Source of the DNA: Oscillospiraceae bacterium
GTDB taxonomy: Bacteria > Bacillota > Clostridia > Oscillospirales > Acutalibacteraceae
Length of the DNA: 64,000 bases
Assembly: GCA_015065645.1 (NCBI GenBank)
Contig: SVPW01000004.1
Location: 1 to 64,000 of the forward strand
Direction of reading: 5' to 3'
Part shown: in pieces, positions 4,680 to 20,689 of the stretch
Position numbering within the stretch: position 1 is the stretch's first letter
Layout of the letters: every line of letters starts with the position of its first letter
Position numbers and translations under genes: made by a program
Notes under the pieces: model-generated
Told to the model about the DNA's origin: nothing
Seen by the model: only the letters and a program-made list of their open reading frames with translations
Database searches by the model: none

Positions 4680-4936
4680 ATTTATGTATTTTGTTTTTAC
4701 GCTGTTTTTATCGCGCCTGATTATTATATCACTACAGTATGTAAATGTCAACAATTATTTTTAAAAATTTTTAATTTTTTTTCGTTCTGTTTTTTGGTTT
4801 CAAAATTACGGCTTTAATTGTGATTATGAAATTATTATAATTCATATTTATTACAGTTTATTATTCGTAAGTTATGGTAGTTAAAAGGGAACAAGAGACA
4901 AAAAGTCCTTTATTTGGTATATTTGATGTTGCATGG

Positions 4937-4965
4937 TTGATATAAATATAATAATATGTTATCAT
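4937..4965 (+). promoter_or_regulatory. Promoter of the WYL regulator
   Basis: TTGATA (4937-4942) and TATCAT (4960-4965) are separated by 17 bp, 30 bp before the start of the WYL gene. The rest of the AT-rich interval 4680-4936 shows no gene. Confidence 0.5.
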
Positions 4966-4994
4966 TTATATAAGATATTTTTGGAGGTTTTAAA

Positions 4995-5972
4995 ATGAAT
5001 ACATTAGAGCCTAAAAAATTAGCGCTTATCAGAATTTTACAAATATTAAAAAAATACAGCGATTATGACCATAGGCTTACACATGAGGATATTGCCGGTT
5101 TTCTTGAAAATGATTATGGAATTGTGATTGAGCGTAAAGCGATAAGTCGAAATCTTTCATTGCTTAGAGAAGCCGGGTTTGAAATTGAATCGGGGCATAG
5201 CGGCAGTTATTTGGCAGAACGTGAATTTGAGGATTCTGAGCTTCGTATGCTGATTGACGGTGTTTTAAACAGCAAATATATTACCGCATCTCATTCTAAA
5301 GCACTGATAGAAAAGCTGTGCGGACTTTCCAATAAATTTTTTCGTTCCCATATAAAAAATATACATTCGGTTAATGAATGGGGAAAAACCGATAATCAGT
5401 CACTTTTTTATAATATTGAGCTTATAGATGATGCTATTGAACATGGAATACAAATTGAGTTTGATTATAATAAGTATGGAATAGATAAAAAACTACACAA
5501 AACCGTTACTCATACAGCAAGTCCGTATCAGTTGGTGCTTCATAATCAGCGTTATTATCTCATGGCTTTAAATGAACGCTGGAAAAATATTACCTTTTAT
5601 AGGGTTGATAATATAACTAATATGGCACTGACTGAGCATAAGCGAACACCTTTAAGAAATGTGGATGGATTTGAGCATGGTATTAATTACAGTGAGCTTG
5701 CAAATTCTCTTCCATATATGTTTACCGATAAATTGGAAAAGATAACCTTTTATGCCGATGAAGAAATTGTTGACCAGATTGTTGATTGGTTCGGTAAAAA
5801 TGTAAAAATAGAAAAGGTTGATGATAAGCTAAAGGTGACGGTGAAGGCAAGTCCTAATGCCATGGAATTTTGGGCTATGCAATACTTGAATTATGTTGAA
5901 ATCATAGCGCCGAATGAGCTTAGGGAAAGAATAAAGGAAAATTTAACAAACGCAATTAATAAGTATAATTAA
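4995..5972 (+). CDS. WYL-domain transcriptional regulator
   Basis: A 325-residue regulator. An N-terminal winged helix-turn-helix (about residues 8-75, including DIAGFLENDYGIVIERKAISRNLSLL) is followed by a WYL domain near 145-225 (HTASPYQLVLHNQRYYLMAL) and a WCX-like C-terminal domain to about 322. WYL domains bind nucleic acid or nucleotide ligands. Such regulators control DNA-damage responses and many defence loci, and are also common in Clostridia generally. GGAGG lies 9 bp before the ATG. A terminator separates it from the helicase operon, so it is its own transcript; regulation of the neighbouring trio is only suggested by proximity. Confidence 0.88.
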   Translation: MNTLEPKKLALIRILQILKKYSDYDHRLTHEDIAGFLENDYGIVIERKAISRNLSLLREAGFEIESGHSGSYLAEREFEDSELRMLIDGVLNSKYITASHSKALIEKLCGLSNKFFRSHIKNIHSVNEWGKTDNQSLFYNIELIDDAIEHGIQIEFDYNKYGIDKKLHKTVTHTASPYQLVLHNQRYYLMALNERWKNITFYRVDNITNMALTEHKRTPLRNVDGFEHGINYSELANSLPYMFTDKLEKITFYADEEIVDQIVDWFGKNVKIEKVDDKLKVTVKASPNAMEFWAMQYLNYVEIIAPNELRERIKENLTNAINKYN

Positions 5973-5975
5973 ATT

Positions 5976-6005
5976 AAAAACCTGCCAAACGGCAGGTTTT
6001 TTTTT
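5976..6005 (+). terminator. Terminator after the WYL gene
   Basis: AACCTGCC and GGCAGGTT form the stem around AAAC, with a nine-base T run. It separates the WYL gene from the helicase operon. Confidence 0.88.
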
Positions 6006-6088
6006 GCTTTTTTACAATGTACCAAAATTGGGACCGCTGAAAATATATAATGATATTAAATATTAAATATAAAAGCGGAGGATTCGGT

Positions 6089-9000
6089 ATGAGAAAAAGA
6101 AAAGAAAAAGGTTCTTTTGATGGTAAATCGGCACAGATATATCTTTTTGACGATTTAATAAGCAAGCTCCAAAAAAATGGAGAAAAGATATCGGCATCCG
6201 ATATTGGTGAGGTGATAAAAAAATTAGTTTCTGTAAAAAAGAATGTTGAAAAAAATGAGCAAATAGAACGCAACCGTAAAGCACAGGAGGAAGAACGGCG
6301 AAGGAAAAAGGAGGCTCGTGAAAGGGAAGAGCTTCATATTAAAGAAGTTACCTCAATGGATTTGCCGCTTGATTGGGAAAATACTTTTAATTGTGATATG
6401 CGTACACAGGGCGTTCACGCAGATAGTATTTCAGATGGACTTATACTATCACTTTCAAATTTAGCACGGGTGGATATAGAATATATTTCCGCTATTACCG
6501 GTGAAGACTACAAAACGGTTATATGTGCGCTTAAAGGTTCAATATATCAAAATCCCGATACTTGGGAAGAGTGCTTTTATAAAGGCTGGGAAACGGCTGA
6601 AGAATACTTATCGGGTAACTTGATGAGAAAGTGGAAATCAGCACAAAGTGCCAATTTGAAATATAAAGGTTATTTTGATGATAATATTAACGCACTTTCT
6701 AAAATTTTGCCTAATACCGTTGCAACTAAGGATATTTATGTTACAATCGGTTCACCTTGGGTACCTGTGGATATTATTGATGATTTTATTACACATATAT
6801 TAAATCTTAAAAGAGAACCATACAGCGGAACCAAGCATGATGAGCTGACCGGTACATGGGAAATACCAAACAAAAGCGGATACTGGTACCGAAACAGTGT
6901 TGCAGCATCCCATACCTACGGTACAGTACGAATGACGGCGCTTTATATTCTTGAAAGAACACTTAATATGAAAACGGTTGCCATTACAGATGAGGTTTCG
7001 TGTGCGGCAAATGCTTCAGGCAAAAAGAGGGTTATTAATAAAGCAGAGACATTGCTTGCTTTGGAAAAGCAGGAAAAGATGATTGAGGAGTTCAGAAAAT
7101 GGGTTTGGAAGGATGAAGAACGCAAAGAACGCTTAGAAATGATTTTTGAAAATAATTTCAGTTGTGTTCGTTCCAGAATGTTTGACGGTTCGTTCTTAAA
7201 ATTTCCCACAATGTCACAAAATGTTCAGCTTTATCCTTATCAAAAAAATGCAGTGGCACGAATTCTTTTTACACCGAATACATTACTTGCACACGATGTC
7301 GGTTCGGGAAAAACTTATATTATGATATGTGCCGGTATGGAAATGCGAAGAATGGGACTTTCAAAGAAAAATTTGTATGTTGTTCCAAATAACATTGTAG
7401 GTCAGTGGAAAAGCATTTTTATGTCTCTTTATCCAAATTCAAAGCTATTGTGTGTAGAGCCTAAAACCTTTACCAAACAAAAACGTGAAGGGGTTTTAGA
7501 AAAAATCCGTGATGAGGATTTTGATGGAATAATTATGGCATACAGCTGTTTTGAACAAATCCCTCTATCAAAGGATTTTTATATGGAGAAGTTACAGGAG
7601 GCAAAGGATAAAATTTGTGAGTTAGCATTAGATAGCAATAAGGCAACATCAAAATTAAGTAAAAAGAAAGAGGAGATTAAAAAAGCAATTTCGCAGCTTG
7701 CAGTTACAATGGATGATATGTATGATACCGTTTATTTTGATGAACTTGGCATTACAAGATTGTTTGTTGATGAGGCGCATAATTATAAAAATGTGCCAAT
7801 AGAAACAAAGGTTGATAAGGTTTTGGGAATTAGTGCGACGGGTTCAAAAAAATGCCGTGATTTGATGGATAAGGTTCATCTTGTTCAGAAAAACAATAAC
7901 GATGGCGGTGTTGTAATGGCAACAGGTACTCCAATCACAAATTCAATAACCGATGCTTTTATAATGCAAAAATATCTGCAAAGCGGTGAGCTTGCAATGT
8001 TGGATTTGCAAAGCTTTGATAGCTGGATTGGAATGTTTGCTGAAAGGGTTACGGAGTTTGAAATAGATGTAGATACAAGCAGTTACCGCTTGGCAACTCG
8101 TTTTGCAAAGTTTCATAATTTGCCGGAGCTCACATCTCTTTTATCATCAATCGCAGATTTTCATCAGGTGGATTCAAGCTCAGGTGTGCCGGAATTTGAC
8201 GGATACGATGATGCTCTCATTGCTAAAACAAAAGATTTTGCAGATTATCTGGAGGAAATTTCAAACCGTGCTGAAAATGTGCGTTCGGGAATAGTGAACC
8301 GCAAGGATGATAATATGCTTAAAATTACCACAGATGGCAGAAAAGCGGCTTTGGATTTGCGTCTTGTAGAGCCTAATGCTTCTTTTACTTATCAATCAAA
8401 GGTTGCACGATGTGCTGAAAATGTTTTTGATATTTATATAAAAACCTATTCGCAAAAAAGCACTCAGCTTATTTTTTGTGATACTTCCACACCAAAAAGC
8501 GGGTTTAATATTTATGATGAACTCAAAAATTTGCTGGTTAATATGGGGATTCCTTCTGAAAAAATCACATTTATTCACGATGCCGAAACCGAAATTCGCC
8601 GTGCAAAGCTTTTCTCTCAGGTTAGAAGCGGAGAAATAAGAGTGCTTATAGGTTCCACCTTCAAATTAGGGCTTGGTGTAAATGTTCAGGATAAGTTAAT
8701 AGCGGTTCATCATATTGATGTGCCGTGGCGTCCTGCAGATATGACACAGCGTGAAGGAAGAATTTTGCGTCAGGGAAATGAAAATCAGAAGGTTCATATT
8801 TACCGCTATATTACAGAGGGTAGCTTTGATGCTTATTCTTGGCAACTTCTTGAAACAAAACAACGCTTTATTTCAGGGCTTCTTTCAGGCTCTCTTACCG
8901 AAAGAAGTGGTTCTGATATTGAAAATACAGTGCTTGATTATGCTGAGGTTAAGGCTTTGGCTGTTGGAAATCCTTTGGTTAAAGAAAGGGTTGAAACCGC

Positions 9001-9568
9001 CAATGAATTAACACGCTATATGGCTTTGCAGAAAAAGGCAATAGAAACACATATTCGTCTTGAAAAGGAGCTGCTTGAGCTTCCTGCAAAAATAAGCCGT
9101 CAATCAGAGCTTATTGCTAAATGTATGGAAGATATTGAGTTTTATAATATTCATCGCAAGGAATATGAAAAGGAGGAAAGAAAGGGAATCAGAGCATCAA
9201 TTTTCAATGCCGTAAAGGATAATGTTTTAATGCAGAAAGAAACACCTCTTATTACCTATCAAGGCTTTGATATCATTCTTCCTGCTAATATGACACCTGA
9301 AAAACCGTTTGTATGGTTGCAGAAAAACAGTAGATATTATGTGGAACTTGGCGATACCGAAATAGGAGGTCTTATTCGTATTGATAATTTTCTTGATAGC
9401 TTGCCTGAGCATATTTCAAAACTCAAAAACGGTTATACCGAGCTTTGTAATAAGCAGTTGGCAATAAAGGCGGAGCTATCCAAAAAAGAAAATTATACTG
9501 ATAAAATTGAAGAAATGAAGCAGCGCCTTGAAAAACTTGATAAAAAGTTAGGAGTAGATAAAAAATGA
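6089..9568 (+). CDS. Large SNF2/superfamily-2-like helicase
   Basis: A protein of 1159 residues. The start is set by GCGGAGG seven bases before ATG 6089; an upstream in-frame ATG at 6050 lacks such a site. The N-terminal 350 residues contain a region with YISAITGEDYKTVICAL...AEEYLSGNL. This resembles the front part of the long methylase-helicases carried on conjugative elements, but I see no methyltransferase motifs here. The motor follows: Walker A HDVGSGKT near 402, a DEAH-type box VDEAHNYKN near 559, motif III ATGTPITNS near 610, and motif VI TQREGRILRQGNENQ near 884. The last 200 residues are charged and helical, likely coiled coil. The stop overlaps the next gene's start (ATGA), so it is translationally coupled to the MoxR ATPase. 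The DNA or RNA substrate is unknown. Confidence 0.85.
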   Translation: MRKRKEKGSFDGKSAQIYLFDDLISKLQKNGEKISASDIGEVIKKLVSVKKNVEKNEQIERNRKAQEEERRRKKEAREREELHIKEVTSMDLPLDWENTFNCDMRTQGVHADSISDGLILSLSNLARVDIEYISAITGEDYKTVICALKGSIYQNPDTWEECFYKGWETAEEYLSGNLMRKWKSAQSANLKYKGYFDDNINALSKILPNTVATKDIYVTIGSPWVPVDIIDDFITHILNLKREPYSGTKHDELTGTWEIPNKSGYWYRNSVAASHTYGTVRMTALYILERTLNMKTVAITDEVSCAANASGKKRVINKAETLLALEKQEKMIEEFRKWVWKDEERKERLEMIFENNFSCVRSRMFDGSFLKFPTMSQNVQLYPYQKNAVARILFTPNTLLAHDVGSGKTYIMICAGMEMRRMGLSKKNLYVVPNNIVGQWKSIFMSLYPNSKLLCVEPKTFTKQKREGVLEKIRDEDFDGIIMAYSCFEQIPLSKDFYMEKLQEAKDKICELALDSNKATSKLSKKKEEIKKAISQLAVTMDDMYDTVYFDELGITRLFVDEAHNYKNVPIETKVDKVLGISATGSKKCRDLMDKVHLVQKNNNDGGVVMATGTPITNSITDAFIMQKYLQSGELAMLDLQSFDSWIGMFAERVTEFEIDVDTSSYRLATRFAKFHNLPELTSLLSSIADFHQVDSSSGVPEFDGYDDALIAKTKDFADYLEEISNRAENVRSGIVNRKDDNMLKITTDGRKAALDLRLVEPNASFTYQSKVARCAENVFDIYIKTYSQKSTQLIFCDTSTPKSGFNIYDELKNLLVNMGIPSEKITFIHDAETEIRRAKLFSQVRSGEIRVLIGSTFKLGLGVNVQDKLIAVHHIDVPWRPADMTQREGRILRQGNENQKVHIYRYITEGSFDAYSWQLLETKQRFISGLLSGSLTERSGSDIENTVLDYAEVKALAVGNPLVKERVETANELTRYMALQKKAIETHIRLEKELLELPAKISRQSELIAKCMEDIEFYNIHRKEYEKEERKGIRASIFNAVKDNVLMQKETPLITYQGFDIILPANMTPEKPFVWLQKNSRYYVELGDTEIGGLIRIDNFLDSLPEHISKLKNGYTELCNKQLAIKAELSKKENYTDKIEEMKQRLEKLDKKLGVDKK

Positions 9569-10680
9569 CTGATATAAAGCTTTCAAATATTCCATCTTTA
9601 AATGTAGGTAAATTAATTGATGAGCTCTCCGGTGCATACTGTACAATAATAAATAATGGTATGCCTATAAAAACACTTCCTTCTGTTATGCTTTGGGGGC
9701 CGCCCGGTGTGGGTAAATCTCAGGCGGTGAGACAAATAGCAAATGAAATTGAAAATAATACGGGTAAAAAGGTTTCGGTAACCGATGCCCGATTATTACT
9801 GTTTAATCCTATTGATTTAAGGGGCATTCCAACCGCTAATGCAGATAAAACCTTGGCAGTTTGGCTTAAACCGCAAATTTTTCAAATGGACGAAAGCGAT
9901 GACACTATAAATATACTTTTCCTTGATGAAATTTCAGCGGCACCTCAATCGGTTCAGGCGGCAGCTTATCAAATTACGCTTGACCGTGTTGTGGGAGAAC
10001 ATAAATTACCTGAAAATTGTATAATTATTGCAGCCGGAAACCGCACTACCGATAAGTCAGTAGCATTTAAAATGCCAAAGGCTCTTGCAAACCGCCTGAT
10101 GCACATTGAGGTTGATGGCAGCTTTAAATCATGGAAAGAATGGGCAATTAAAAACGGAATTAATGAAAAGGTTTTGGGATTTTTATCTTTTAAGCAAAAT
10201 AATCTTATGGCGTTTGATTCCTCTTCTGATGATTTGGCTTTTGCAACACCTCGTACTTGGGAAATGGTAAGTAACCTATTAAACTATGTAAATAATGATA
10301 TTGAAAAGATATATTCATTAATTTCAGGTCTTGTAGGAAGCGGTGTTGCAATAGAATTTAGAACTTGGGCAAAGGTTTACAAGCAACTGCCATCTATCAA
10401 GGATATTTTTGATGGTAAAATGCCACCGCTTCCCTCTAATACCGATGCTTTATATGCGCTGATTGCATCAATGACCGTTTATGCCGGAGAACATAAAAAC
10501 GATTTATCACGCATTGCAAATTCTATTCGTTATGCAGACCGTATGCCGCCCGATTTTTCAACCGTGCTTATGAAAGATTATATGTATATAGAAAAGGGAT
10601 TTAAGGAAAAGCTTTTAAAAATTCCTGAATTCTCAAAATGGCTTCAAACGAAAGGAAAGTTTTTAAATGGCTCTGTCTGA
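9565..10680 (+). CDS. MoxR-like AAA+ ATPase
   Basis: A 371-residue AAA+ ATPase of the MoxR/dynein-related (AAA_5) type. Walker A is WGPPGVGKS near residue 45, Walker B ILFLDEISAAP near 119, sensor 1 AAGNRTTDKS near 155, and an arginine-finger region ALANRLMHIEV follows. MoxR proteins act as chaperone-like ATPases, nearly always paired with a VWA-domain partner whose MIDAS motif docks on the ring. Here the partner is the next gene, overlapping by 14 bases. The start overlaps the helicase stop. Such tight packing implies one stoichiometric complex or pathway; what it remodels is unknown. Confidence 0.88.
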   Translation: MTDIKLSNIPSLNVGKLIDELSGAYCTIINNGMPIKTLPSVMLWGPPGVGKSQAVRQIANEIENNTGKKVSVTDARLLLFNPIDLRGIPTANADKTLAVWLKPQIFQMDESDDTINILFLDEISAAPQSVQAAAYQITLDRVVGEHKLPENCIIIAAGNRTTDKSVAFKMPKALANRLMHIEVDGSFKSWKEWAIKNGINEKVLGFLSFKQNNLMAFDSSSDDLAFATPRTWEMVSNLLNYVNNDIEKIYSLISGLVGSGVAIEFRTWAKVYKQLPSIKDIFDGKMPPLPSNTDALYALIASMTVYAGEHKNDLSRIANSIRYADRMPPDFSTVLMKDYMYIEKGFKEKLLKIPEFSKWLQTKGKFLNGSV

Positions 10681-11875
10681 AGAAAAAATAAAATCTTATT
10701 CTCAAAGAATTTTGCTTTCAAGAATGAGAATTTTATGTAATCACGGTTTTTACGGTTTGCTGTTAATGCATATGAAATTTTCAATAGATGAATCGGTAGA
10801 AACTGCTTGTACAGATGGAGAACGCATTATTTTTGGAAGTTGCTTTTTAGAAACTTTATCTGATAGAGAACTTGATTTTGTTATGATGCACGAAATTATG
10901 CATGTGGTGCTTCAGCACTGTATGCGTGGTGAAAAATATGATGCAGAAAGGTTTAATATTGCGTGTGATATTGTTGTTAATTCAAATATTTTATTGGAGA
11001 ATAATAAAAAGATGAGCAGTATCACACTAAAACAATACGGTGTTTCAATACATCTTGCACCTGATGGCAAAGAGGGTTATGAGTATACTGCGGAGCAGGT
11101 GTATAATATGTTGCCAAAAATTAATAAAGGCTTTGGGCTGATGAATGGTGATGGTGAAAAGGGTTTTTGGGACAACCATTCAAAATGGGGTTTTGGTGGT
11201 GATGATGATTTACTTAAAGATGTATGGGCAAAACATTTCTCTGATGCGGTAGAGGCAATTTCAATCCGTGATGCATCAAATAATAGAAATAATATTCCGC
11301 TTTTTGCTAAACGAATTTTAGAAACAATGCGTAAAGCCCAAACCAATTGGCGAACAATCCTTAATGATTTTGTTCAGGAAGAGGTAGTTGATTATTCTTT
11401 TTCACCACCTGACCGCAGATTTGCCGAAAGTCCGTTTTTTCTACCTGATTTTAATGAAAAGGACGATATCGTGGAGGATATTCTGTTTATGATTGACACA
11501 TCAGCTTCAATGTCGGACGAAATGATAACAGCCGCCTATTATGAAATTAAGGGTGCTATTGACCAGTTTAACGGCAGACTTAAGGGATGGCTTGGATTTT
11601 TTGATGCGGCGGTTATTAAACCACAGCCCTTTGCGGATGAAAACGAATTTGAAATAATAAAGCCGTTTGGTGGAGGCGGAACAAATTTTCATATCATCTT
11701 TGAGTATGTGCGTAAAAAAATGCAGGATAAATTACCTGTAAGCATAATAATTTTAACCGATGGCTATGCTCCTTTTCCGGAAGAATCAATTTCAATGGGA
11801 ATACCTGTTTTATGGCTGCTTAATAATGAAAAAGTAAATCCGCCTTGGGGAAGGATAGCAAGAATAACAGTGTAA
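10667..11875 (+). CDS. Metallopeptidase-like/VWA protein (DUF2201 type)
   Basis: A 402-residue protein with two parts. The N-terminal half carries HEIMHVVLQH near residue 75, a zinc-protease-like HExxH within a helical domain, as in the DUF2201 putative metallopeptidase family. The C-terminal half is a VWA-like domain with an intact MIDAS: DTSAS near 276, the Thr of GGGGTN near 340, and LTDGYAP near 363. VWA partners of MoxR ATPases hand substrates to the ring. The start overlaps the MoxR gene by 14 bases and has AAAGGAAAG upstream. Whether the HExxH is catalytic is not established; the third zinc ligand is not obvious. Confidence 0.85.
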   Translation: MALSEEKIKSYSQRILLSRMRILCNHGFYGLLLMHMKFSIDESVETACTDGERIIFGSCFLETLSDRELDFVMMHEIMHVVLQHCMRGEKYDAERFNIACDIVVNSNILLENNKKMSSITLKQYGVSIHLAPDGKEGYEYTAEQVYNMLPKINKGFGLMNGDGEKGFWDNHSKWGFGGDDDLLKDVWAKHFSDAVEAISIRDASNNRNNIPLFAKRILETMRKAQTNWRTILNDFVQEEVVDYSFSPPDRRFAESPFFLPDFNEKDDIVEDILFMIDTSASMSDEMITAAYYEIKGAIDQFNGRLKGWLGFFDAAVIKPQPFADENEFEIIKPFGGGGTNFHIIFEYVRKKMQDKLPVSIIILTDGYAPFPEESISMGIPVLWLLNNEKVNPPWGRIARITV

Positions 11876-11890
11876 GCAAAAATTTTTGAA

Positions 11891-11919
11891 TTGATATACA
11901 CTTTAAATGGTGATATAAT
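11891..11919 (+). promoter_or_regulatory. Promoter of the small HAD gene
   Basis: TTGATA (11891-11896) and a perfect TATAAT (11914-11919) are separated by 17 bp, 30 bp before ATG 11950. The HAD gene can therefore be expressed apart from the helicase trio. Confidence 0.65.
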
Positions 11920-11949
11920 TATAAAAAATGGTGAATAAAGGAATGTGCG

Positions 11950-12408
11950 ATGAAGTTTATTTTTCTTGATATAGATGGTGTTTTGAATTCTCAAAAATAT
12001 GACCTTTCAAGGGGAGAGGATGACGGTAATATTGATGTTACTCGTTTGCCTTTATTAAAGCGTATAGTAGAAGCAACAAATGCAAAAATTGTCTTATCAA
12101 GCTCTTGGCGTAAGGCATGGGAAAAGGATTTATCGCTTTGTGATGAAATAGGTATTGAGCTTAATCGTATTTTTTTAAAATTCGGTATTCAAATATATGA
12201 TAAAACCCCTGTAATCGGATTGCGCAAATCAGAAATTGAAGCTTATCTTCAAAATAATGCCAATGTGGAAAGCTTTGTTATTTTAGATGATATGCTTTTA
12301 GGCTGGGGAGATTATGGGGAATTTTTAGTTCACACAAACCCTATGGTGGGCAGAGGCCTTGAGGAAAGGCATATTAATGCCGCAATCGAAATATTAAATA
12401 AAAAATAA
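11950..12408 (+). CDS. Small HAD-domain protein
   Basis: A 152-residue stand-alone HAD domain. Motif I is FLDIDGVLNSQ at the N-terminus, giving a DxD with nucleophile Asp. Motif II is VLSSSWRKAWE near residue 55, and a late FVILDDMLLGWGDYG supplies the acidic motif. The pattern matches the HAD family also found as a module in 'Swiss Army Knife' RNA-repair proteins, where it is thought to act as a polynucleotide phosphatase; small orphan members are common and uncharacterised. It follows the MoxR/VWA gene by 74 bp with no terminator between but with its own promoter. Confidence 0.75.
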   Translation: MKFIFLDIDGVLNSQKYDLSRGEDDGNIDVTRLPLLKRIVEATNAKIVLSSSWRKAWEKDLSLCDEIGIELNRIFLKFGIQIYDKTPVIGLRKSEIEAYLQNNANVESFVILDDMLLGWGDYGEFLVHTNPMVGRGLEERHINAAIEILNKK

Positions 12409-12488: not shown

Positions 12489-12558
12489 AACCTTACCACT
12501 TGATTTAGATGTTTGTTTTTTGTGTTTAAGTGAGGAAAATAATAAGGAGGTTGTTAGT

Positions 12559-12795
12559 GTGAAAAAGGTAATTTGTAAGGTAGAATATGATACTGCAAAT
12601 TCTGAGCTTGTAGCAAAGTATACCAGCGGTGAATTTGGTGATGCCGCAGGTTATGAAGAAAGCCTTTATAAAACCGCAGAGGGTAAATACTTTATTTATG
12701 TAAACGGCGGTGCCGATTCTGCTTATCCTGAAGAAAATATTAAAAGAATAGCGCAGGGTAAGGTTAATGAATGGCTTTCTCAGCACGGTTTCTAA
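12559..12795 (+). CDS. Small acidic hypothetical protein, 78 aa
   Basis: This protein starts at GTG 12559, which has an ideal AAGGAGG eight bases upstream. The longer in-frame ATG at 12520 has no ribosome binding site. The protein is soluble and has an alpha/beta character (KKVICKVEYD; YKTAEGKYFIYVNGG), ending in a helix (IKRIAQGKVNEWLSQHGF). I do not recognise a named family. It is monocistronic, with its own promoter and a strong terminator shared with the convergent Cys-rich gene. Confidence 0.75.
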   Translation: MKKVICKVEYDTANSELVAKYTSGEFGDAAGYEESLYKTAEGKYFIYVNGGADSAYPEENIKRIAQGKVNEWLSQHGF

Positions 12796-12798
12796 TGT

Positions 12799-12838
12799 AA
12801 AAAATGCGCCCCACCTTATTAGGTGGGGCGCATTTTTT
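12799..12838. terminator. Bidirectional terminator
   Basis: The stem ATGCGCCCCACC/GGTGGGGCGCAT is flanked by an A run on the left and a T run on the right. It can end transcripts from both the 78-aa gene (plus) and the Cys-rich gene (minus). Confidence 0.88.
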
Positions 12839-12853
12839 GTTGTCGCTCAAATA

Positions 12854-12994
12854 TTAGCAACCGCAGCAGTTGTTATCACAACCACAGCCGCAACCGTTAC
12901 CGGTGCTGATGCCGTTACCGCCACCGCAGCAAACAAGGATAAGGATAAGAACAAGAATCCAACTGCAATTTCCACCAAAACCGTTGTTACACAT
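12854..12994 (-). CDS. Cysteine/glycine-rich mini-protein (HCB13-like)
   Basis: A 46-residue gene on the minus strand. The protein begins MCNNGFGGNCSW, crosses a short hydrophobic stretch ILVLILILV and ends in a Cys/Gly/Asn-rich tail (GCGCGCDNNCCGC); ten residues are cysteine. A near-perfect AAAGGAGGTC lies about 8 bases before the ATG. The layout matches the small clostridial proteins annotated as 'chorion class high-cysteine HCB protein 13'. Their function is unproven; spore-coat or membrane roles have been guessed from composition. It ends just before the bidirectional terminator. The plus-strand frame opposite it has no ribosome binding site. Confidence 0.78.
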   Translation of the reverse strand: MCNNGFGGNCSWILVLILILVCCGGGNGISTGNGCGCGCDNNCCGC

Positions 12995-13076
12995 TTGACA
13001 GACCTCCTTTTTCTTAGGTATTACATACTATGTCTTTTAAATAAATGTGTTCAAAAAAATTTTTTCATTGTAGGTA

Positions 13077-13124
13077 TTGACTTTTCCTGACTTTCGTGTA
13101 TAATTAAAGTCAGGAAAGGTCAAA
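13077..13124 (+). promoter_or_regulatory. ctsR promoter embedded in two CtsR-box arrays
   Basis: TTGACT (13077-13082) and TATAAT (13099-13104) are separated by 16 bp. A heptad repeat resembling the CtsR consensus lies on the minus strand at 13077-13095 (reverse complement AAAGTCAGGAAAAGTCAA). A second lies on the plus strand at 13106-13124 (AAAGTCAGGAAAGGTCAAA). They are mirror images around the -10 box, so CtsR bound here would block RNA polymerase, giving autorepression of the operon. Confidence 0.8.
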
Positions 13125-13138
13125 AACAGGTGATAAAT

Positions 13139-13591
13139 ATGAGAATAAGTGATCTTATAACAGCTGAAATTCAGCGTTTGCTTGATGAGTCTGATATTAA
13201 TACGGCTGAAATCCAGCGTAATGAGCTTGCAAATCTGATAGGTTGCGCTCCAAGTCAAATCAATTATGTTTTGTCTTCTCGTTTTACTCCGGAACACGGT
13301 TATATAATAGAAAGCAGGCGTGGTGGCGGTGGATATATAAAAATTCGCCGTGTGATGATGAGTCATTCTTCGGCTTTGATGCACATTATAAATTCTGTAG
13401 GGGATAGCGTTGATGCAATGACTGCAAGAATTGTTATTGAAAATTGCCTGCAATCAGGGCTTATTGAGGCTTCTGCGGCAAAGCTTATGTATGCGGCACT
13501 TTCAAATAATGTTATGCGGTGTGTTCCTCCTATATTAAAGGATGCGGTTCGTGCCGCCATTTTAAAAGAAATGTTACTCACTCAAATTTAA
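13139..13591 (+). CDS. ctsR: CtsR heat-shock repressor
   Basis: A 150-residue repressor of class III heat-shock genes. The N-terminal winged helix (ISDLITAEIQRLL, then NELANLIGCAPSQINYVLSSRF) ends in the conserved glycine-rich wing ESRRGGGGYIKIRR, which senses temperature and is the arginine-phosphorylation region in relatives. The C-terminal half is the CtsR dimer domain. ATG 13139 is preferred because AGGTG sits 6-7 bases before it; a GTG at 13130 lies inside that site. It heads ctsR-mcsA-mcsB-clpC and represses its own promoter through the flanking boxes. Confidence 0.93.
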   Translation: MRISDLITAEIQRLLDESDINTAEIQRNELANLIGCAPSQINYVLSSRFTPEHGYIIESRRGGGGYIKIRRVMMSHSSALMHIINSVGDSVDAMTARIVIENCLQSGLIEASAAKLMYAALSNNVMRCVPPILKDAVRAAILKEMLLTQI

Positions 13592-13618
13592 GCTTATTTA
13601 TAGAAAGGTAGGATTTAT

Positions 13619-14119
13619 ATGCTTTGTGAAAAATGCGGAAAGAATAATGCTACTACACATATAAGAACTGTTGTAAACGGTGTTGTTACCGAGCATAATC
13701 TTTGCGGTTATTGTGCCGCTAAAGAGGGTTATACCGATATTGGTAATAACAGCTTAGGTGAAATGTTGGCATCGGTTTTCGGTGATGTTTTAACCAAAAA
13801 TTCAGCATCTGCTGCTTTGCGTTGTCAGTGCTGTAATGCTTCTTTTTCGGATATTGCCGAAAGCGGTAAGGTTGGTTGTTCGGAGTGTTATAAAACCTTT
13901 TATGATGAGCTTTTACCGTATCTTAAAAGGGTTCACGGCTCCACCCGTCATGCAGGTAAAATTCCCAATAGGGCACCGCTTATGGTTAAGCCTCAAAAAG
14001 AAACCATTGATAGCCTCAGGATGAAGCTTAATGAGCTTGTGCGTTTGGAAAAATTTGAAGAGGCGGCAGTTGTTCGTGATAGAATAAAAAAGTTAGAGGA
14101 GGAAAAGGGTAATGAGTAG
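13619..14119 (+). CDS. mcsA: McsA, activator of protein arginine kinase
   Basis: A 166-residue zinc protein. It has CxxC pairs at the N-terminus (CEKCGKNN; LCGYCAAKEG), two more near residues 68-90 (RCQCCNASF; GCSECYKTF), and a C-terminal UVR motif (LRMKLNELVRLEKFEEAAVVRDRIKKLEEE; residues about 128-160). McsA binds and activates the McsB arginine kinase, releases CtsR from DNA under stress and bridges to ClpC. It lies 27 bp after ctsR and overlaps mcsB by 8 bases. Length and domain order are normal. Confidence 0.92.
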   Translation: MLCEKCGKNNATTHIRTVVNGVVTEHNLCGYCAAKEGYTDIGNNSLGEMLASVFGDVLTKNSASAALRCQCCNASFSDIAESGKVGCSECYKTFYDELLPYLKRVHGSTRHAGKIPNRAPLMVKPQKETIDSLRMKLNELVRLEKFEEAAVVRDRIKKLEEEKGNE

Positions 14120-15134
14120 CTGGTATTTAGGAAAAAATCCTGAAGATGATATTGTTGTAAGTACAAGAATACGTTTAGCCCGTAATATTACGGGACTTCC
14201 TTTTCCCTCAAGAATGAGCGAGACTCAGCGTGAAGAGCTTAATCAAAGGGTGAAAAAGGCAATACTTGAAAGCAATACACCCTTTGCACGCACACTTAAA
14301 TTTATAGAAATGAAGGATGTTCCCGAGGATGAGCGTCACGCAATGGTGGAAAGGCATATTGTAAGTCCGGAATTTGTTGCTAATCAAAAAGGAAGGGCAA
14401 TAATACTTTCTCAGGATGAAAGCATCAGTATAATGATTGGCGAGGAGGATCATCTTCGTATACAGGTGCTTTGCGGCGGATTACAGCTTGAAAAGGCTTA
14501 TGATACGGCTGCAAGACTTGATGATCTGCTTTGCGATCAGCTTAATTTTGCATTTGATGAACAGCTTGGTTTCCTTACCGAATGTCCTACCAATTTGGGT
14601 ACAGGGCTTCGTGCTTCGGTAATGCTTCATTTGCCAATAGTTGAGGGAATGGGGCAGATTGGTTCTTTGGCGGATTCGGTTAATAAAATAGGCTTTACCG
14701 TCAGAGGAATGTACGGTGAGGGTACAAAGGCATCAGCTTCGCTTTATCAGATTTCCAATCAAATAACACTTGGTATAAGCGAAAAAAATGCACTTGATAA
14801 TTTAAAAATTGTTACAATGCAGTTGATTGAAAAGGAGCGTCGTGAACGCAAAGGGCTTAATAAATTGAAAATTGAGGATATATGTATGCGTGCATACGGT
14901 ATTTTAAGCTGTGCTCGTATACTTGATAGCAGTGAAATGATGAAACGCTTATCCGAGATTAAGCTTGGTATGGGTTTGGGCATAATAAACGATGAGGAAA
15001 TTAATCCCATTCGTATTCTTATTGAGGGTCAGCCCTATATGCTTATGCGTAAATTTGGAAGAATGAGTCCTGATGAGCGTGATATTTATCGTGCAAATAT
15101 GGTTAGGCAAGCCCTTATGAAAAAAGGAAATTAA
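14112..15134 (+). CDS. mcsB: McsB protein arginine kinase
   Basis: A 340-residue member of the phosphagen-kinase fold, without the N-terminal domain of eukaryotic creatine/arginine kinases. Nucleotide-binding arginines are seen in STRIRLARNITGLPFPSRM, and other conserved blocks are ILSQDESISIMIGEEDHLRIQ, LTECPTNLGTGLRASVMLHLP and VRGMYGEGTKA. McsB phosphorylates arginines on CtsR and on misfolded proteins, marking them for ClpC-ClpP. GAGGAGGAAAAGGG precedes the ATG, which lies inside the mcsA 3' end, so the two are translationally coupled. Confidence 0.93.
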   Translation: MSSWYLGKNPEDDIVVSTRIRLARNITGLPFPSRMSETQREELNQRVKKAILESNTPFARTLKFIEMKDVPEDERHAMVERHIVSPEFVANQKGRAIILSQDESISIMIGEEDHLRIQVLCGGLQLEKAYDTAARLDDLLCDQLNFAFDEQLGFLTECPTNLGTGLRASVMLHLPIVEGMGQIGSLADSVNKIGFTVRGMYGEGTKASASLYQISNQITLGISEKNALDNLKIVTMQLIEKERRERKGLNKLKIEDICMRAYGILSCARILDSSEMMKRLSEIKLGMGLGIINDEEINPIRILIEGQPYMLMRKFGRMSPDERDIYRANMVRQALMKKGN

Positions 15135-15146
15135 GGAGATTGTTAT

Positions 15147-17585
15147 ATGAAATTTAATTTTGAAGGTTTTACCGAAAAGGCTAAAGCGGCACTAAACTAT
15201 GCCATAGTTGATGCCGGACAAATGGGTCACACCTATGTTGGCAGTGAGCATATTTTATTGGGTCTTTTAAAATCGGGTAGCGGTATTGCCGCAAATATTT
15301 TAGATAAGTATAATGTTACATGGGAAAAAATTGAGGAAATGCTCAGAAACTCAATAGGAAGCGGTACTCCCACACGCCTTTCTCCTGAATATTTCACCCC
15401 CAGAGCAAAGCGTGTAATTGAAAATGCAATGTCTTGTTGTGTTAAAATGGGCAAAAAATATGTTGGAACAGAGCATTTATTGATAGGTATTTTAAGTGAG
15501 GGCGATAATTACGCCGTTAATTTCCTGATTGAGCTTGGTGTTGATGTAGCTTCCCTTAGAAACGAAATGCTTTCCGGTATTCAAAGCGGTGTTGATTCTG
15601 CATCAACATCCTTTAAAGAGCCCCGTAAACCGAATAAGGATAATAAGGCTCCAACCCTTGAAAAATATGGCCATGATTTAACCAAATCGGCTAAAAATGG
15701 TGAAATCGACCCCGTTATCGGACGCAGTGAAGAGGTTCAGCGTGTTATTCAAATACTTTGCCGCAGAACTAAAAACAATCCTTGCCTTATCGGTGAACCG
15801 GGTGTGGGAAAAACCGCAATAATTGAAGGTCTTGCGTTAAAGATTGTTTCGGGAGAGGTTCCTGATATTCTTCGTGATAAAAGGGTAATAACACTTGATC
15901 TTACGGGAATGGTTGCAGGAACAAAATACCGTGGTGATTTTGAAGAGCGTATTCGTTCGGTAATAGAAGAGGTATCTAAATCGGATAATATAATTCTGTT
16001 TATTGATGAGGTTCATACTATCATAGGAGCAGGCTCTGCTGAGGGCTCAACCGATGCCGCAAACATTTTAAAGCCTGCTTTGGCTCGTGGTGAATTTCAG
16101 CTTATAGGTGCTACCACTATTTCCGAATACCGCAAAAATATTGAAAAGGATTCGGCATTGGAACGCCGTTTCCAGCCTGTTAATGTTGCAGAGCCTTCTG
16201 TTGAAGATGCAATTCTTATATTAAAGGGTCTTAAAGATAAATATGAAGCTCATCATAAGGTTAAAATACATGATGAGGCAATCGTTGCGGCAGTTGATCT
16301 TTCAAGCAGATACATTAATGACCGCTTTTTGCCCGATAAGGCTATTGATCTTATTGATGAAGCGGGAAGTAAGGTTCGTTTGGCTGTTGCAAATATTCCG
16401 CCTGAGCTCAAAGAGCTTGAAGAAAAAATTTCTGCTGTAAATGCCGATATGGATGAAGCGGCAAACAGCCAGGATTTTGAGCGTGCGGCAAAACTGCGTG
16501 ATACTAAAAAGCTTCTAAAGGAAGAGCTTGAAGAACGCAAAAATGCTCTAAAGGCAAATAACTCACATTATGAGGGTGAGGTCACTGCTGAGGATATTGC
16601 TGAAATAGTATCTTCTTGGAGTGGCGTTCCTGTTGTTCAGCTAACCGAAGAGGAAAGTGAAAGATTGCTTAATCTTGAAAAGGTTCTTCATGATAGACTT
16701 GTAGGTCAGCATGAAGCAGTTGTTGCGGTATCAAAGGCAATTCGCCGTGGCCGTGTTGGTCTCAAAGATCCCAAACGCCCCATAGGTTCGTTTATATTCT
16801 TAGGCCCCACAGGTGTTGGTAAAACTGAACTTTGCCGTGCTTTGGCAGAAGCAATGTTTGGAAGCGAGAACCGTATGGTAAGGCTTGATATGTCGGAATA
16901 TATGGAAAAACATTCGGTTTCCCGCCTTGTTGGTTCACCTCCCGGATATGTAGGCTTTGAAGAGGGCGGTCAGTTAACCGAACAGGTTCGCCGTCATCCG
17001 TATTCGGTAATACTCTTTGATGAGGTGGAAAAAGCTCATCCGGATGTTTTCAATATCTTGCTTCAAATTTTGGAGGATGGTATTTTAACCGATTCGCAGG
17101 GTCGCCGTGTTGATTTTAAAAACACCGTGATAATTATGACATCTAATATTGGCGCCCGCCTTATTACTGATAAAAAGGTAAGCTTTGGATTTACCGCCAC
17201 TGAGGCAACTGTTGAAACCAATGTTAAAGATAAGGTTATGGGTGAATTAAAGGAGGCCTTCCGTCCTGAGTTTTTAAACCGTGTGGATGATATTATTGTG
17301 TTTAATAAGCTCACTCACGATGAGATTGGTCAAATAGCCGTTAAAATGCTTGAAGGTCTGCAAAAAAGGCTTGATAACCTTAATATTAAGGTTGATTTTG
17401 ATCAAAGCACCATTGCTGCTCTTGCTGATAAGGGCTTTGATCCGGTATATGGTGCGCGTCCGCTTCGCCGTGAAATTCAAAGCAGTATAGAGGATGCTTT
17501 AAGCGAAAAGATACTTGACGGAAGTATTAAAAACGGTGATAAGGTGCGTTGTACCTTTGAAAACGGTGTATTTGAATTTAAGTAA
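15147..17585 (+). CDS. clpC: ClpC AAA+ unfoldase
   Basis: An 812-residue Hsp100 ATPase. Domains in order: two Clp N repeats (about residues 3-140, which bind McsA/McsB and phospho-arginine substrates); AAA-1 with Walker A GEPGVGKT near 217; a middle domain with a UVR-like stretch ([12 protein letters not shown]) near 441; AAA-2 with Walker A GPTGVGKT near 552; and a D2-small C-terminal domain. It unfolds tagged proteins and feeds them to ClpP, which is not encoded here. It is the last gene of the CtsR operon, 12 bp after mcsB, and is followed by a terminator. Confidence 0.95.
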
Positions 17586-17591
17586 AATGAA

Positions 17592-17625
17592 AAAATCAGC
17601 CTTGCAAAACAAGGTTGATTTTTTT
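17592..17625 (+). terminator. Terminator after clpC
   Basis: AATCAGCCTTG and CAAGGTTGATT form the stem, followed by a T run that immediately precedes the next promoter's -35 box. Confidence 0.82.
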
Positions 17626-17626
17626 C

Positions 17627-17684
17627 TTGACAAATTGGTCTATAGATGATAGACTATGAATGTAAGGTCTATTGATTATAGACC
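17627..17684 (+). promoter_or_regulatory. Promoter with two BlaI-type operators
   Basis: TTGACA (17627-17632) and TAGACT (17650-17655) are separated by 17 bp. Two near-identical inverted repeats of the form GGTCTAT-N5-ATAGACC lie at 17637-17655, covering the spacer and -10, and at 17666-17684, just downstream. The BlaI-family repressor encoded next is the obvious ligand, implying autorepression. Confidence 0.8.
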
Positions 17685-17702
17685 AAAAAAGGAGGTAAAA
17701 AA

Positions 17703-18068
17703 ATGAAAGAAATAAATTTGGGTGTTGTTGAAGCGCATTTTGCTGATATAGTTTGGTTTAATGAACCGCTTTCTTCGGGTGAGCTTGTTGGTCTTTGTGA
17801 AAAGGAACTCGGCTGGAAAAAATCCACCACCTATACCGTTTTGAAAAAACTGTGTGAAAAGGGTATTTTTAAAAATGAAAACAGCATAGTAACATCTCTT
17901 GTTTCAAAAGAAGAATTTTATGCTATAAAAAGTGAAAAATTTGTTGAGGAAACCTTTAAGGGCTCATTACCCGCTTTCATAGCAGCCTTTACAAAGCGTA
18001 AGTCATTAACAGCAAAGGAGATAGAGCAGATACAACAAATGATAAACGATTTTAAGGGGGAAGAATAA
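17703..18068 (+). CDS. BlaI/MecI/CopY-family repressor
   Basis: A 121-residue winged-helix repressor with a C-terminal dimerisation helix region. The recognition region is ELVGLCEKELGWKKSTTYTVLKKLCEKG, typical of BlaI/MecI. In the family, proteolysis triggered by a BlaR1-type sensor relieves repression. The sensor is the next gene, whose ATG shares its A with this gene's TAA. AAAGGAGG precedes the start. No beta-lactamase gene is nearby, so this may be one of the many clostridial BlaI/M56 pairs with unknown stimulus. Confidence 0.9.
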   Translation: MKEINLGVVEAHFADIVWFNEPLSSGELVGLCEKELGWKKSTTYTVLKKLCEKGIFKNENSIVTSLVSKEEFYAIKSEKFVEETFKGSLPAFIAAFTKRKSLTAKEIEQIQQMINDFKGEE

Positions 18069-20689
18069 TGGAGGATATTTTCTTAAAACTCCTTAATATG
18101 AGTATAACGGCAGGTTATCTTGTTCTTGCAATAGTGATAATTCGTGTTATTTTCAAAAGAATACCAAAGTTTATAAATTGTATACTTTGGGCTTTGGTTG
18201 GAATAAGGCTTGTCTTACCGTATTCTATAGAAAGTATTTTAAGTCTTATACCAAATAACGAGCCTATACCTGCGGATATTGCATTAGCATCACAGCCTCA
18301 AATAGAAACAGGAATAAGTATTCTTAACAGCACGGTAAATCCTATTATATCAAATAGCTTTGCACCGGATATGCGTTATAGTGCCAATCCTTTACAAATA
18401 GTAAATTTTATTGCAGCAAATGTGTGGTTAATGGTTTTAGCGGTAATGCTTTTATATGCTGTTATAAGCTATATTGTTGTTAGAATAAGGGTTCGTGTGC
18501 GTATTAATTTAAAGGAAAATATTTATATATGTGATAATATTGATACTCCTTTTATTTTAGGTTTAATAAAGCCATGTATATACATTCCTTCAAATATTGA
18601 TAAGGATTGTATTGAAAGCGTTATTTTGCATGAAAAGGCACATATTAAGCGTCTTGATTATATTTGGAAACCGTTAGGCTTTTTATTGCTTTCGGTTTAT
18701 TGGTTTAATCCGCTTATTTGGTTAGCTTATATTCTGCTGTGCCGTGATATTGAATTTGCCTGTGATGAAAGGGTAATAAAGCAAATGAGTGATAGCTGTA
18801 TAAAGTCATACTCAAGGGCTTTACTAAGCTGTAGCAGTAAAAAAAGCAGTATTAAAGCTTGTCCGTTGTCTTTTGGTGAGGTTGGAGTTAAGCAAAGAAT
18901 AAAATCGGTTTTAAATTATAAAAAGCCAACCTTTTGGATAAGCATAACAGCCGTTATTCTAAGTATTGCCGTAGCGGTAACATTTTTGACCAATCCCATT
19001 AAGAAAAACAAAGATACATCATTAGGTGAAATATCAAATATTGAGATATTAAGCTCAGGCTCTGATATTGATGGTATAACCATAAATATTATATCGGCAC
19101 ATTTTGATACCACACCTCAAAAATCTTTTTTAGAGGTTATTTTGCTTAATAACACACGCACAGAGCATAATTTCGGTGAGGAGTTTTATATTTACCAAAA
19201 AACGGGTAACGAATGGAAAAATTGCCGTAAGAGTAAAGAGTATAGCTGGAATTCAATAGCAAATATCTTATCGGCTGAATCTGATTATACAAAAAAATAT
19301 TATCTTGATGATATTCAGCTTGAGTCAGAAAATATATATCGCTTTGAAGCCATATTTTTATCAAGTGACCCGCTTACAAATTCAAAGCCTAAGGCATGGG
19401 TTGAGTTTAAACTTTCTTCGGATAATACAACCGGCGAAACAATTTTAAAAGCTAATAAACTTGTGTATGACCATGGTATGTTTTCTTATGTTCAAACGGC
19501 AGATTCTGCTCCTGTTTATTGCAATAAAAATGGTAGTTTATTACAGCGTACCAATGGCGGAGATGTGTGGTTTAGCCTAGGAAAATTGGAGGAAGTAAAG
19601 CTTAATGATGATAATTTCAATTCCCGATTTATAAATGATTATTTTCAGGATATATCATTAGAAAAGCTTGTTAAAAATAATAAAAAGATGTGGCAGTTAA
19701 AGCGAAAAAATGAAGATATTTCGGAGCTTTATATCGTAACGCTTCAAAATAACGGTCAATATTATTTAGGCTATGGCTATTATGATAGTGATGGCAATTA
19801 TAAATATAATAATCCCGATAATTCATATATTCGTTGGCTTTATGAGTGTAAAGTGTTACAGGGTCTTCCGCCTGAACAAATTGATTCACCAAGCATCATT
19901 AAAACAAGCTATTGCGGCAGTGAACAACTAAGCCTTTATAGCGGTGCGCTTAATACCAAAATGATGATATATAGTTCTGTCCGGCATCTGCCAATATATA
20001 AATTTGAATCGGTTTCGCAACTTAATAAATTTAAAGAAAGAATGGGAGCTGCTGCAAATTCGCAGTCTTTAAGCAATATACCGTCTTTTAATGACATCAC
20101 CTCAAATTGTAATGATGATTTTTTTGAAAATTATGTATTGTTTGCAATTTATATCCATTCGGATGATAATTTAGTTGGATTTACGGTTGATAATATTTAT
20201 AATGATGGTGAAAATTTTGTAGTTCATGTGGCAAGCAAACCGCTTGAAACAAAGGAAACACCAACAGGCTCATTTATATTAACCGTTTCTGTGCCGAAAT
20301 CGGTTGTGGAAAGCTGTAAGGAATTTGATGCTGATGTGGATAATATTCCTCGTTTTAATAATATATTGGTTTACGGCTATTATGATTCCAAGGATGTTTT
20401 AATGCCAAGATTCGTTCTTGATACATCTGATATGACCTTTAATTTCACATATTCCGGGTTGAGCAGTTATTGGCCAAGAGGAAAATACACTCTTACCGAT
20501 ACCGAGCTTTTGCTTAAAACTACCGATGATTTTGCTTATGAGTATGTATTTAAAAGAACCGAAAATGGCTTTGTATTTGATGAAAAGGCATCTTCCGCAA
20601 TACCAAAATATAATTATTCGGCTGAAAACACAGAGAAAATTTCACCCGTTCCTGATGGTGCATTGTTTACCATTATAGAAACCGAATAA
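18068..20689 (+). CDS. BlaR1-like M56 membrane metallopeptidase
   Basis: An 873-residue integral membrane protease-sensor. The N-terminal 320 residues contain about five hydrophobic segments. The zinc motif is HEKAH near residue 187, with a downstream CDERV Glu near 230, as in M56 peptidases. After the last membrane helix (SITAVILSIAVAVTFLT, about 297-315) comes an extracytoplasmic region of some 550 residues. It is not the penicillin-binding domain of BlaR1: I see no SxxK-type pocket, only beta-rich sequence. It probably senses an envelope signal and cleaves the cognate repressor inside the cell. The two genes are coupled by a one-base overlap. Confidence 0.85.
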   Translation: MEDIFLKLLNMSITAGYLVLAIVIIRVIFKRIPKFINCILWALVGIRLVLPYSIESILSLIPNNEPIPADIALASQPQIETGISILNSTVNPIISNSFAPDMRYSANPLQIVNFIAANVWLMVLAVMLLYAVISYIVVRIRVRVRINLKENIYICDNIDTPFILGLIKPCIYIPSNIDKDCIESVILHEKAHIKRLDYIWKPLGFLLLSVYWFNPLIWLAYILLCRDIEFACDERVIKQMSDSCIKSYSRALLSCSSKKSSIKACPLSFGEVGVKQRIKSVLNYKKPTFWISITAVILSIAVAVTFLTNPIKKNKDTSLGEISNIEILSSGSDIDGITINIISAHFDTTPQKSFLEVILLNNTRTEHNFGEEFYIYQKTGNEWKNCRKSKEYSWNSIANILSAESDYTKKYYLDDIQLESENIYRFEAIFLSSDPLTNSKPKAWVEFKLSSDNTTGETILKANKLVYDHGMFSYVQTADSAPVYCNKNGSLLQRTNGGDVWFSLGKLEEVKLNDDNFNSRFINDYFQDISLEKLVKNNKKMWQLKRKNEDISELYIVTLQNNGQYYLGYGYYDSDGNYKYNNPDNSYIRWLYECKVLQGLPPEQIDSPSIIKTSYCGSEQLSLYSGALNTKMMIYSSVRHLPIYKFESVSQLNKFKERMGAAANSQSLSNIPSFNDITSNCNDDFFENYVLFAIYIHSDDNLVGFTVDNIYNDGENFVVHVASKPLETKETPTGSFILTVSVPKSVVESCKEFDADVDNIPRFNNILVYGYYDSKDVLMPRFVLDTSDMTFNFTYSGLSSYWPRGKYTLTDTELLLKTTDDFAYEYVFKRTENGFVFDEKASSAIPKYNYSAENTEKISPVPDGALFTIIETE

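Follow-up and report, generated by a model that had tools for sequence, protein, structure and literature searches.

A WYL-linked operator before a coupled helicase, MoxR and VWA operon: a candidate regulon against invading DNA or DNA stress in gut Clostridia

The window analyzed here, 64,000 nucleotides from the start of contig SVPW01000004.1 of an Oscillospiraceae bacterium (assembly of 1.86 Mb, 86% complete; by its relatives, probably a gut or rumen member of the Clostridia), carries a gene for a WYL regulator followed by three coupled genes, called the trio below. They encode an SNF2-type motor (the helicase), a MoxR-type ATPase, and a protein that joins a metallopeptidase-like domain to a VWA domain. 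We consider it probable that these genes belong to an anti-invader or DNA-stress regulon activated by the WYL protein, with the trio being an ATP-driven machine targeted by the adjacent regulator. The evidence read from the sequence comprises the gene order, conserved active sites, a discordance between trio and host relatedness, and a shared operator at a fixed spacing from the promoter, with three similar promoters elsewhere in the same genome. The regulatory part of this reading is well supported by these comparisons, and the effector function of the trio is inferred from its parts and neighbors. The main features are as follows; the WYL, helicase, MoxR, and VWA genes and a downstream HAD gene each have Pfam support.

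4895..4923, + strand: likely WYL promoter (GAGACA, 17 bp, TATATT with extended TG), from a consensus scan and from relatives, where the -10 lies within the operator
4995..5972, + strand: WYL regulator, 325 aa, with WYL and WCX domains and a presumed N-terminal DNA-binding part
5976..6001, + strand: putative intrinsic terminator of the WYL gene, from the consensus scan
6018..6035, no strand: operator TGTACCAAAATTGGGACC, the top match in the 64-kb window to a model from WYL promoters of other genomes
6046..6051, + strand: putative -10 box TATAAT, exactly 10 bp past the operator, without a -35 hexamer
6089..9568, + strand: SNF2-type motor, 1159 aa, akin to the helicase region of giant DarB-like proteins
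9565..10680, + strand: MoxR-type AAA+ ATPase, 371 aa, by Pfam and a phage-family match
10667..11875, + strand: putative DUF2201_N metallopeptidase (HEIMH) fused to a VWA-like domain (metal-ion-dependent adhesion site DTSAS), 402 aa

The best operator of the whole window stands past the WYL terminator and ahead of the helicase gene and is followed, after 10 bp, by a perfect TATAAT. None of 150 dinucleotide shuffles contained a composite as good, with the score seen in the window serving as the threshold; at a score of 12 with a -10 of 4/6, nine of the 150 shuffles had one. An earlier note, made from the window's sequence alone, had given the WYL gene its own terminator and separate transcription, and this held, as the terminator precedes the operator. 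Because the operator stands after that terminator, the link between WYL and the trio would run through DNA binding. The consensus scan returned 39 promoter-like sites compared to 38.6 in shuffles, which is no excess, and 11 terminator-like sites compared to 7.2, a slight one. Two starts are possible for the helicase open reading frame (ORF), ATG 6050 (1172 aa) and ATG 6089 (1159 aa). The latter is the better choice since GGAGG precedes it and ATG 6050 falls inside the putative -10 box; transcription starting from the operator/-10 promoter would therefore have the helicase translated from ATG 6089. The 1159-residue length given earlier thus stands.

The operator is a palindrome, TGYACC-N6-GGTRCA, common to the upstream regions of WYL orthologues in other genomes. 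A symmetric model was built from ten WYL-promoter sites, none from the window, and was run on 250-bp upstream regions with a cut-off score of 10. Sites above the cut-off were found before 17 of 60 helicase genes (Fisher p 3e-11), 11 of 23 genes for an AAA protein with AAA_lid_6, 7 of 12 AAA-M41 genes, five of six LigA-like genes, 3 of 10 DUF2779 genes, two of eight PHP polymerase genes, and 15 of 28 WYL genes, the last count including training sites. The corresponding figures were 1 of 203 control genes and 0.6-1.0% in dinucleotide shuffles. Non-coding DNA held 52 sites above 12 in 58 kb of WYL loci (training sites included), 27 in 98 kb of other trio loci, and 0 in 30 kb of control loci. Among 92 gene-site pairs, helicase (22), WYL (12), AAA_lid_6 (11), and AAA-M41 (6) genes were the most frequent. 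In locus L126, which has no helicase, the operator stands before MoxR. The trio operon is the commonest operator target, in loci that were gathered for carrying the trio or its WYL regulator.

At target promoters, a -10 box (at least 4/6) lay exactly 10 bp past the operator in 36 of 45 cases, and it reached at least 5/6 in 30. Counts at 30 other offsets averaged 2.4, with a highest value of 12; the -10 box is not part of the operator model. The operator occupies the -35 position, where the hexamer is mostly poor, and this layout looks like that of an activator. The 15 WYL promoters with a site are built in another way: in 13 of them the -10 begins 14 bp inside the operator, and 10 have a second -10 at +28. 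A TTG-type -35 at 16-18 bp is listed for 11 of the 13 promoters with the -10 inside the operator. At these promoters, a bound dimer would therefore block transcription of the WYL gene.

Such a block at the WYL promoters is also what would be expected if the protein were a BrxR-like repressor of all its targets, with a signal relieving repression of a defense island. Statements on published systems here refer to excerpts of the cited papers. BrxR binds inverted repeats, has been linked to BREX and Type IV restriction, and had 338 of 347 homologues in Proteobacteria (PMC9122601). The window's family shares with it both inverted-repeat operators and a WYL gene lying ahead of Type IV restriction genes. 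However, BrxR homologues are mostly proteobacterial, the targets of the window's family look activated, and a pure repressor would have no need for an operator that replaces the -35 at constant spacing from the -10. In addition, no chain named BrxR was among the 12 PDB profile matches of the WYL family at E<=0.1. We find repression of all targets doubtful.

Activation by the WYL protein is in line with its closest structural matches. Pfam recognized WYL (37.7 bits) and WCX (27.7 bits) domains in the window protein, both above the cut-offs, and the profile of its family matched PafBC (4.7e-9) and DriD (8.5e-7) in the sensor half; a search of the PDB with the single sequence gave none at <=0.01. 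PafBC and DriD are DNA-damage regulators activated by single-stranded DNA (PMC11804915, PMC12340889), and DriD sites overlap the -35 with constant spacing to the -10 (PMC12340889), as the operator does here. Compared to what the excerpts describe, the window's family has a different operator sequence and restriction and mobile genes in its regulon, and the window copy has one PafB arginine replaced. This arginine belongs to a pair in the PafB WYL domain, R211/R214, that is required for binding single-stranded DNA (PMC11804915). The first of the pair is kept in 23 of 25 sequences (R203 in the window copy).

The association between WYL and trio was also seen across genomes. Close WYL orthologues were found in 15 of 50 trio genomes compared to 19 of 394 genomes of the order (p 3e-7), and matches at E<=1e-60 in 24 of the 50 compared to 23 of the 394, the two sets being of different make-up and overlapping slightly. 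Twenty-two WYL-bearing genomes (18 with close orthologues) included five with MoxR, and in four of these it lay no more than about 9 kb from WYL. The earlier note had linked the two by position; the link stands, and it would run via the shared operator instead of co-transcription.

The window's own genome holds further copies of the promoter composite. Allowing two mismatches, 235 operator sites were found in it compared to 62 for a reversed control. The genome was read in part, at places picked from the operator matches listed, with A/T-rich spacers, and at other listed loci. Three more operator/10-bp/-10 composites were found on contig C2, in the midst of ordinary genes, some of them histidine-biosynthesis-like. 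The first precedes the gene for a 278-aa protein with family members behind the operator in L038, L115, and L206 (41-44% identity), and the other two are divergent, one before a metallophosphoesterase gene and one before a gene for a DnaB_C-like ATPase. The 278-aa family is present in 4 of 104 WYL or trio loci and the metallophosphoesterase family in 13 of 104; both are absent from 20 control loci. There was no further composite in the rest of C2 or in 20 kb of C40, and none stood before a gene in the twenty control loci. The composite motif lets further response genes be found by sequence. The operator-bearing family of L038, L115, and L206 has no Pfam match and shows the motif ERTDEDGVLYIP; it stands behind the operator in several genomes, the window's included:

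L266 16936-17769: ERTDEDGVLYIP-motif family
L115 15436-16497: ERTDEDGVLYIP-motif family
L038 4534-5553: ERTDEDGVLYIP-motif family
L206 8315-8677: ERTDEDGVLYIP-motif family

The trio itself was followed through a MoxR scan of one genome per species in 84,980 species, which gave 98 confirmed stretches and 80 kept loci, mostly in Clostridia from gut and rumen samples. Removal of L073 and L105 as copies of G084 and G056 left 78 loci. The full trio was called in 58 of them, the helicase in 70 and the VWA gene in 74; the ORF caller placed an antisense ORF over MoxR in eight loci, MoxR being the gene by which the 80 had been found. Three of the eight loci without a helicase begin at a contig edge, and in L122 the helicase stands last. 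In the window, the helicase and MoxR genes overlap by 4 bp and the MoxR and VWA genes by 14 bp. The same values are the commonest in relatives, with -4 bp at the helicase-MoxR junction in 30 of at least 55 measured loci and -14 bp at the MoxR-VWA junction in 28 of 50. As they recur across homologous loci, these overlaps are not due to chance, and the proposal that the three genes are coupled as one unit was supported. Helicase motifs I, II, III, V, and VI are near-invariant (66 sequences), as are the MoxR Walker A and B, sensor 1, and arginine finger (76-77 sequences). In the VWA proteins, both histidines of HExxH and the DxSxS motif are present in 75 of 75 and the glutamate in 65.

Some loci depart from this pattern. 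The HExxH glutamate is replaced in L092, L097, L102, L114, L115, and L122-L126, which suggests that these VWA proteins may be pseudo-peptidases in some lineages. Two consecutive MoxR genes stand between helicase and VWA in L103 and L104. In L037 (8962-14774, genome G121), a break at Walker A leaves the helicase as two overlapping ORFs, and MoxR is interrupted, so that this trio appears to be decayed or mis-assembled. The L208 trio (12552-18190) appears to be decaying, with a shortened helicase ORF and a VWA fragment after WYL and two GmrSD-like genes, in a genome without MoxR. A second, divergent pair of MoxR (27-28%) and VWA (24-26%) was found near WYL genes in L207 (11540-13758) and L221 (9648-11782), and alone in L044.

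The earlier note had named universal conservation at one core locus as an outcome that would count against a conflict system. The full trio was found in 7 of 149 related genomes (the window's own included), the VWA protein in 9, and helicase relatives in 26, many of the last as ORFs of 2200-3100 aa with 37-41% identity. In the same-genus carriers G019 and G056, the trio lies on a different contig from ctsR; the trio is therefore not a single universal core locus. Percent identities to the window host for ClpC and MoxR, respectively, were 72 and 65 in L105 (same genus), 69 and 77 in L056, 66 and 76 in L057, 64 and 84 in L047, 61 and 80 in L048, 58 and 72 in L064, 57 and 80 in L050, 52 and 64 in L102, 51 and 80 in L049, 51 and 73 in L070, and 50 and 78 in L051, where ClpC values are those of the best segment if ClpC was broken and the comparison is by pairwise identities rather than a tree. 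Trio identity is discordant with host relatedness, which suggests horizontal transfer of an accessory trio. Twenty ctsR regions of the same genus (two of just 1.8 and 6 kb) contained no trio, WYL, or HAD gene; none is a clean empty site because the rhaB-like gene is missing there too.

The trio could also be a remnant of a phage or plasmid, a virion-assembly MoxR-VWA pair beside a DarB-type helicase, without a host function. The MoxR protein matched phrog_1297 (2.6e-98, residues 39-368 of 371) and the VWA protein phrog_1314 (3.9e-73, residues 4-401 of 402). In jumbo phages, a MoxR protein and a vWA protein with an N-terminal metallopeptidase have been proposed to act in virion assembly (PMC7824862). 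The window pair has the same two parts; unlike the pair in that excerpt, it lies in a chromosome, has an SNF2 motor coupled to it, and follows a WYL-type operator. The helicase matched the DarB-like antirestriction family phrog_10089 with 801 bits over residues 124-1171, and so shares its core with the helicase-methylases of phages and plasmids. Unlike those of the plasmid or element type, which are ORFs of about 2200-3100 aa, it has about 1160 aa; Pfam gave no methylase family at E<=0.1, and the phrog_10089 match begins at residue 124. VWA relatives occur in 605 of 50,697 phage records and helicase relatives in 111, with helicase relatives also in 2,035 of 72,556 plasmid records. Against a remnant stand the intact motifs and the overlaps and promoter layout conserved in many hosts. 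A scan of viral contigs gave a single partial relative, and in Bacillus phage G and Thermus phage phiFa no helicase or SNF2-type gene is annotated within 6 kb of the VWA gene, most genes there being unnamed. We judge a functionless remnant very improbable.

The trio was also compared to known defense systems. MoxR-vWA ternary systems, to which the earlier note had likened it, carry a peptidase on the vWA protein and include SWI2/SNF2 parts among some effectors (PMC7159879, PMC12839542). A MoxR ATPase and a vWA protein encoded together with a third component is a likeness; the third gene here is a DarB-related SNF2 motor, in contrast to the VMAP, beta-propeller, or iSTAND components in those excerpts. 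None of these three was seen at the window trio, the searches having had no dedicated iSTAND model. The MoxR protein scored 15.6 bits against bpMoxR, below the cut-off of 27. Membership in the described ternary systems was thus not supported. PADLOC-DB 2.0.0 gave no full-length match to the trio, with partial core matches for the helicase and MoxR (best DrmD, 48 bits) and none for the VWA protein. Searches of the PDB with single sequences found none for the helicase (<=0.001), two weak matches for the VWA protein, and for MoxR just short matches over the Walker A region; the VWA profile matched the uncharacterized MJ1213 at 1.2e-4. No paper describing the trio or the operator was among the matches listed in a search of open-access full texts, judged by titles and the starts of abstracts.

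The defense context comes from the neighbors. WYL orthologues (58-68% identity) are present in 13 other trio or MoxR-VWA loci. Between WYL and the trio stand AAA_5 and McrC genes in L050 and L063, GmrSD genes in L111, L115, and L120, a PDDEXK_4 gene in L048, genes without a Pfam match in L062, and one such gene in L082; there is nothing between them in L037, L091, L123, and the window. Recurrent companions are the AAA protein with AAA_lid_6 (18 loci), AAA-M41, DUF2779, an NAD-ligase paralogue, a PHP-DnaE polymerase, and leucine-rich repeat proteins, and the same families adjoin WYL orthologues that stand without a full trio. A wider sample was less striking, as Pfam placed GmrSD in 2 of 133 neighbor proteins (from 292) and otherwise gave a broad mix. 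At E<=1e-15, 45 PADLOC families were found among the 133 neighbor proteins compared to 1 among 133 control proteins, but this is a tally of overlapping families, several per protein, and not of 45 proteins, which lessens its weight for a defense role. The defense or conflict context proposed earlier is retained through the WYL link and the Type IV restriction or PD-(D/E)XK genes in several relatives, and is separate from ternary membership. Short paralogues of replication proteins (ligase, PHP-DnaE polymerase, DnaG/Toprim, DnaB_C) were seen in or near WYL-linked loci or behind the operator:

L111 12672-14555: short replication-protein paralogue
L115 17829-20111: short replication-protein paralogue
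L223 2516-3424: short replication-protein paralogue
L267 15611-16420: short replication-protein paralogue

Another possible explanation is a DNA-damage response without immunity, in which the WYL regulon would be SOS-like and the trio would remove stalled complexes or DNA-protein crosslinks, in loose parallel to eukaryotic p97 with the SPRTN protease. The kinship of the WYL sensor half to PafBC and DriD, the ligase-, polymerase-, and DnaB-like paralogues among regulon or island genes, and the activator-like promoter geometry all agree with it. A sparse trio at odds with host relatedness and the McrBC, GmrSD, and PD-(D/E)XK cargo between WYL and trio do not, and we think repair alone unlikely. 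Due to the mobility and restriction cargo, defense is somewhat favored over repair, and a housekeeping role is also conceivable.

Several observations weigh against a WYL-activated regulon centered on the trio. The second PafB contact arginine is Arg in 18 of 25 sequences and Asn in the window copy. At 1e-30, WYL goes unmatched in seven of the 50 trio genomes. Of the 60 helicase upstream regions, 43 do not exceed a score of 10, and neither the GmrSD (0/4) nor the McrB (0/1) genes have their own operator above 10. The operator before the helicase does not clearly track WYL in the 50 trio genomes (9 of 24 with WYL compared to 5 of 26 without, Fisher p 0.21), and the exact pattern separates WYL-positive from WYL-negative genomes weakly (16 sites in 19 compared to 6 in 20). 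The unclear tracking before the helicase counters a simple one-to-one picture; it may be explained by genome incompleteness, by operons that begin farther upstream, or by diverged paralogues of WYL. In the window itself, no site at the WYL promoter exceeds 10, and TGTACC-N6-GGTACA with two mismatches was not significant in the window (3 found compared to 1.17 expected). The DnaB_C-like gene of C2 is not enriched (1 of 104 loci compared to 1 of 20 control loci). Lastly, 10 of 75 VWA homologues lack the catalytic glutamate (Gln in 7), so proteolysis must be dispensable in some of them.

Taking the regulon with the trio as its machine as the working model, the WYL dimer would bind TGYACC-N6-GGTRCA. 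At its own promoter the bound site would cover the -10 and cause autorepression, and at target promoters it would replace the -35, 10 bp before the -10, and activate as in DriD. The signal is likely single-stranded DNA or another product of damaged or invading DNA. The motor, the MoxR AAA+ ATPase, and the VWA protein with its zinc-peptidase-like domain would form one ATP-driven machine, in which the motor tracks DNA and MoxR-VWA remodels or cleaves DNA-bound proteins. Its substrates would be proteins of phage replication or packaging, or DNA-protein crosslinks. Type IV restriction genes would be induced together with the trio in many relatives. A more far-reaching version, which we put forward tentatively, is an undescribed inducible response to invaded DNA in gut Clostridia, an SOS counterpart merged with immunity. 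It would combine a WYL protein sensing single-stranded DNA, scattered promoters, a mobile trio, replisome-like paralogues (ligase, PHP polymerase, DnaB-like ATPase), and exchangeable Type IV modules. WYL regulators are known to run either defense islands or DNA-damage genes, and here one operator family appears to join both kinds.

The HAD gene downstream of the trio is not part of this regulon. The earlier note had grouped it with the candidate system:

11950..12408: HAD_SAK_2 gene, Pfam-supported

It was rejected as a partner, since no operator precedes it and a HAD relative lies near the trio in just one other locus, L081, among the 86 neighborhoods compared. The consensus scan placed a promoter-like site at 11891-11919, before HAD. 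Small ORFs at 12520-13090, between HAD and ctsR, have no Pfam match where checked (91 aa). Upstream of WYL is a tRNA-Leu(gag) gene transcribed away from the trio, and a tRNA-integrated island is unsupported. The upstream flank gene is presumably rhamnulokinase-like, and ctsR (CtsR by Pfam) is followed downstream by what we take to be mcsA-mcsB-clpC. The sequence around the window's WYL promoter, TTTGGTATATT, is similar to a degenerate operator half, the full operator being weak there.

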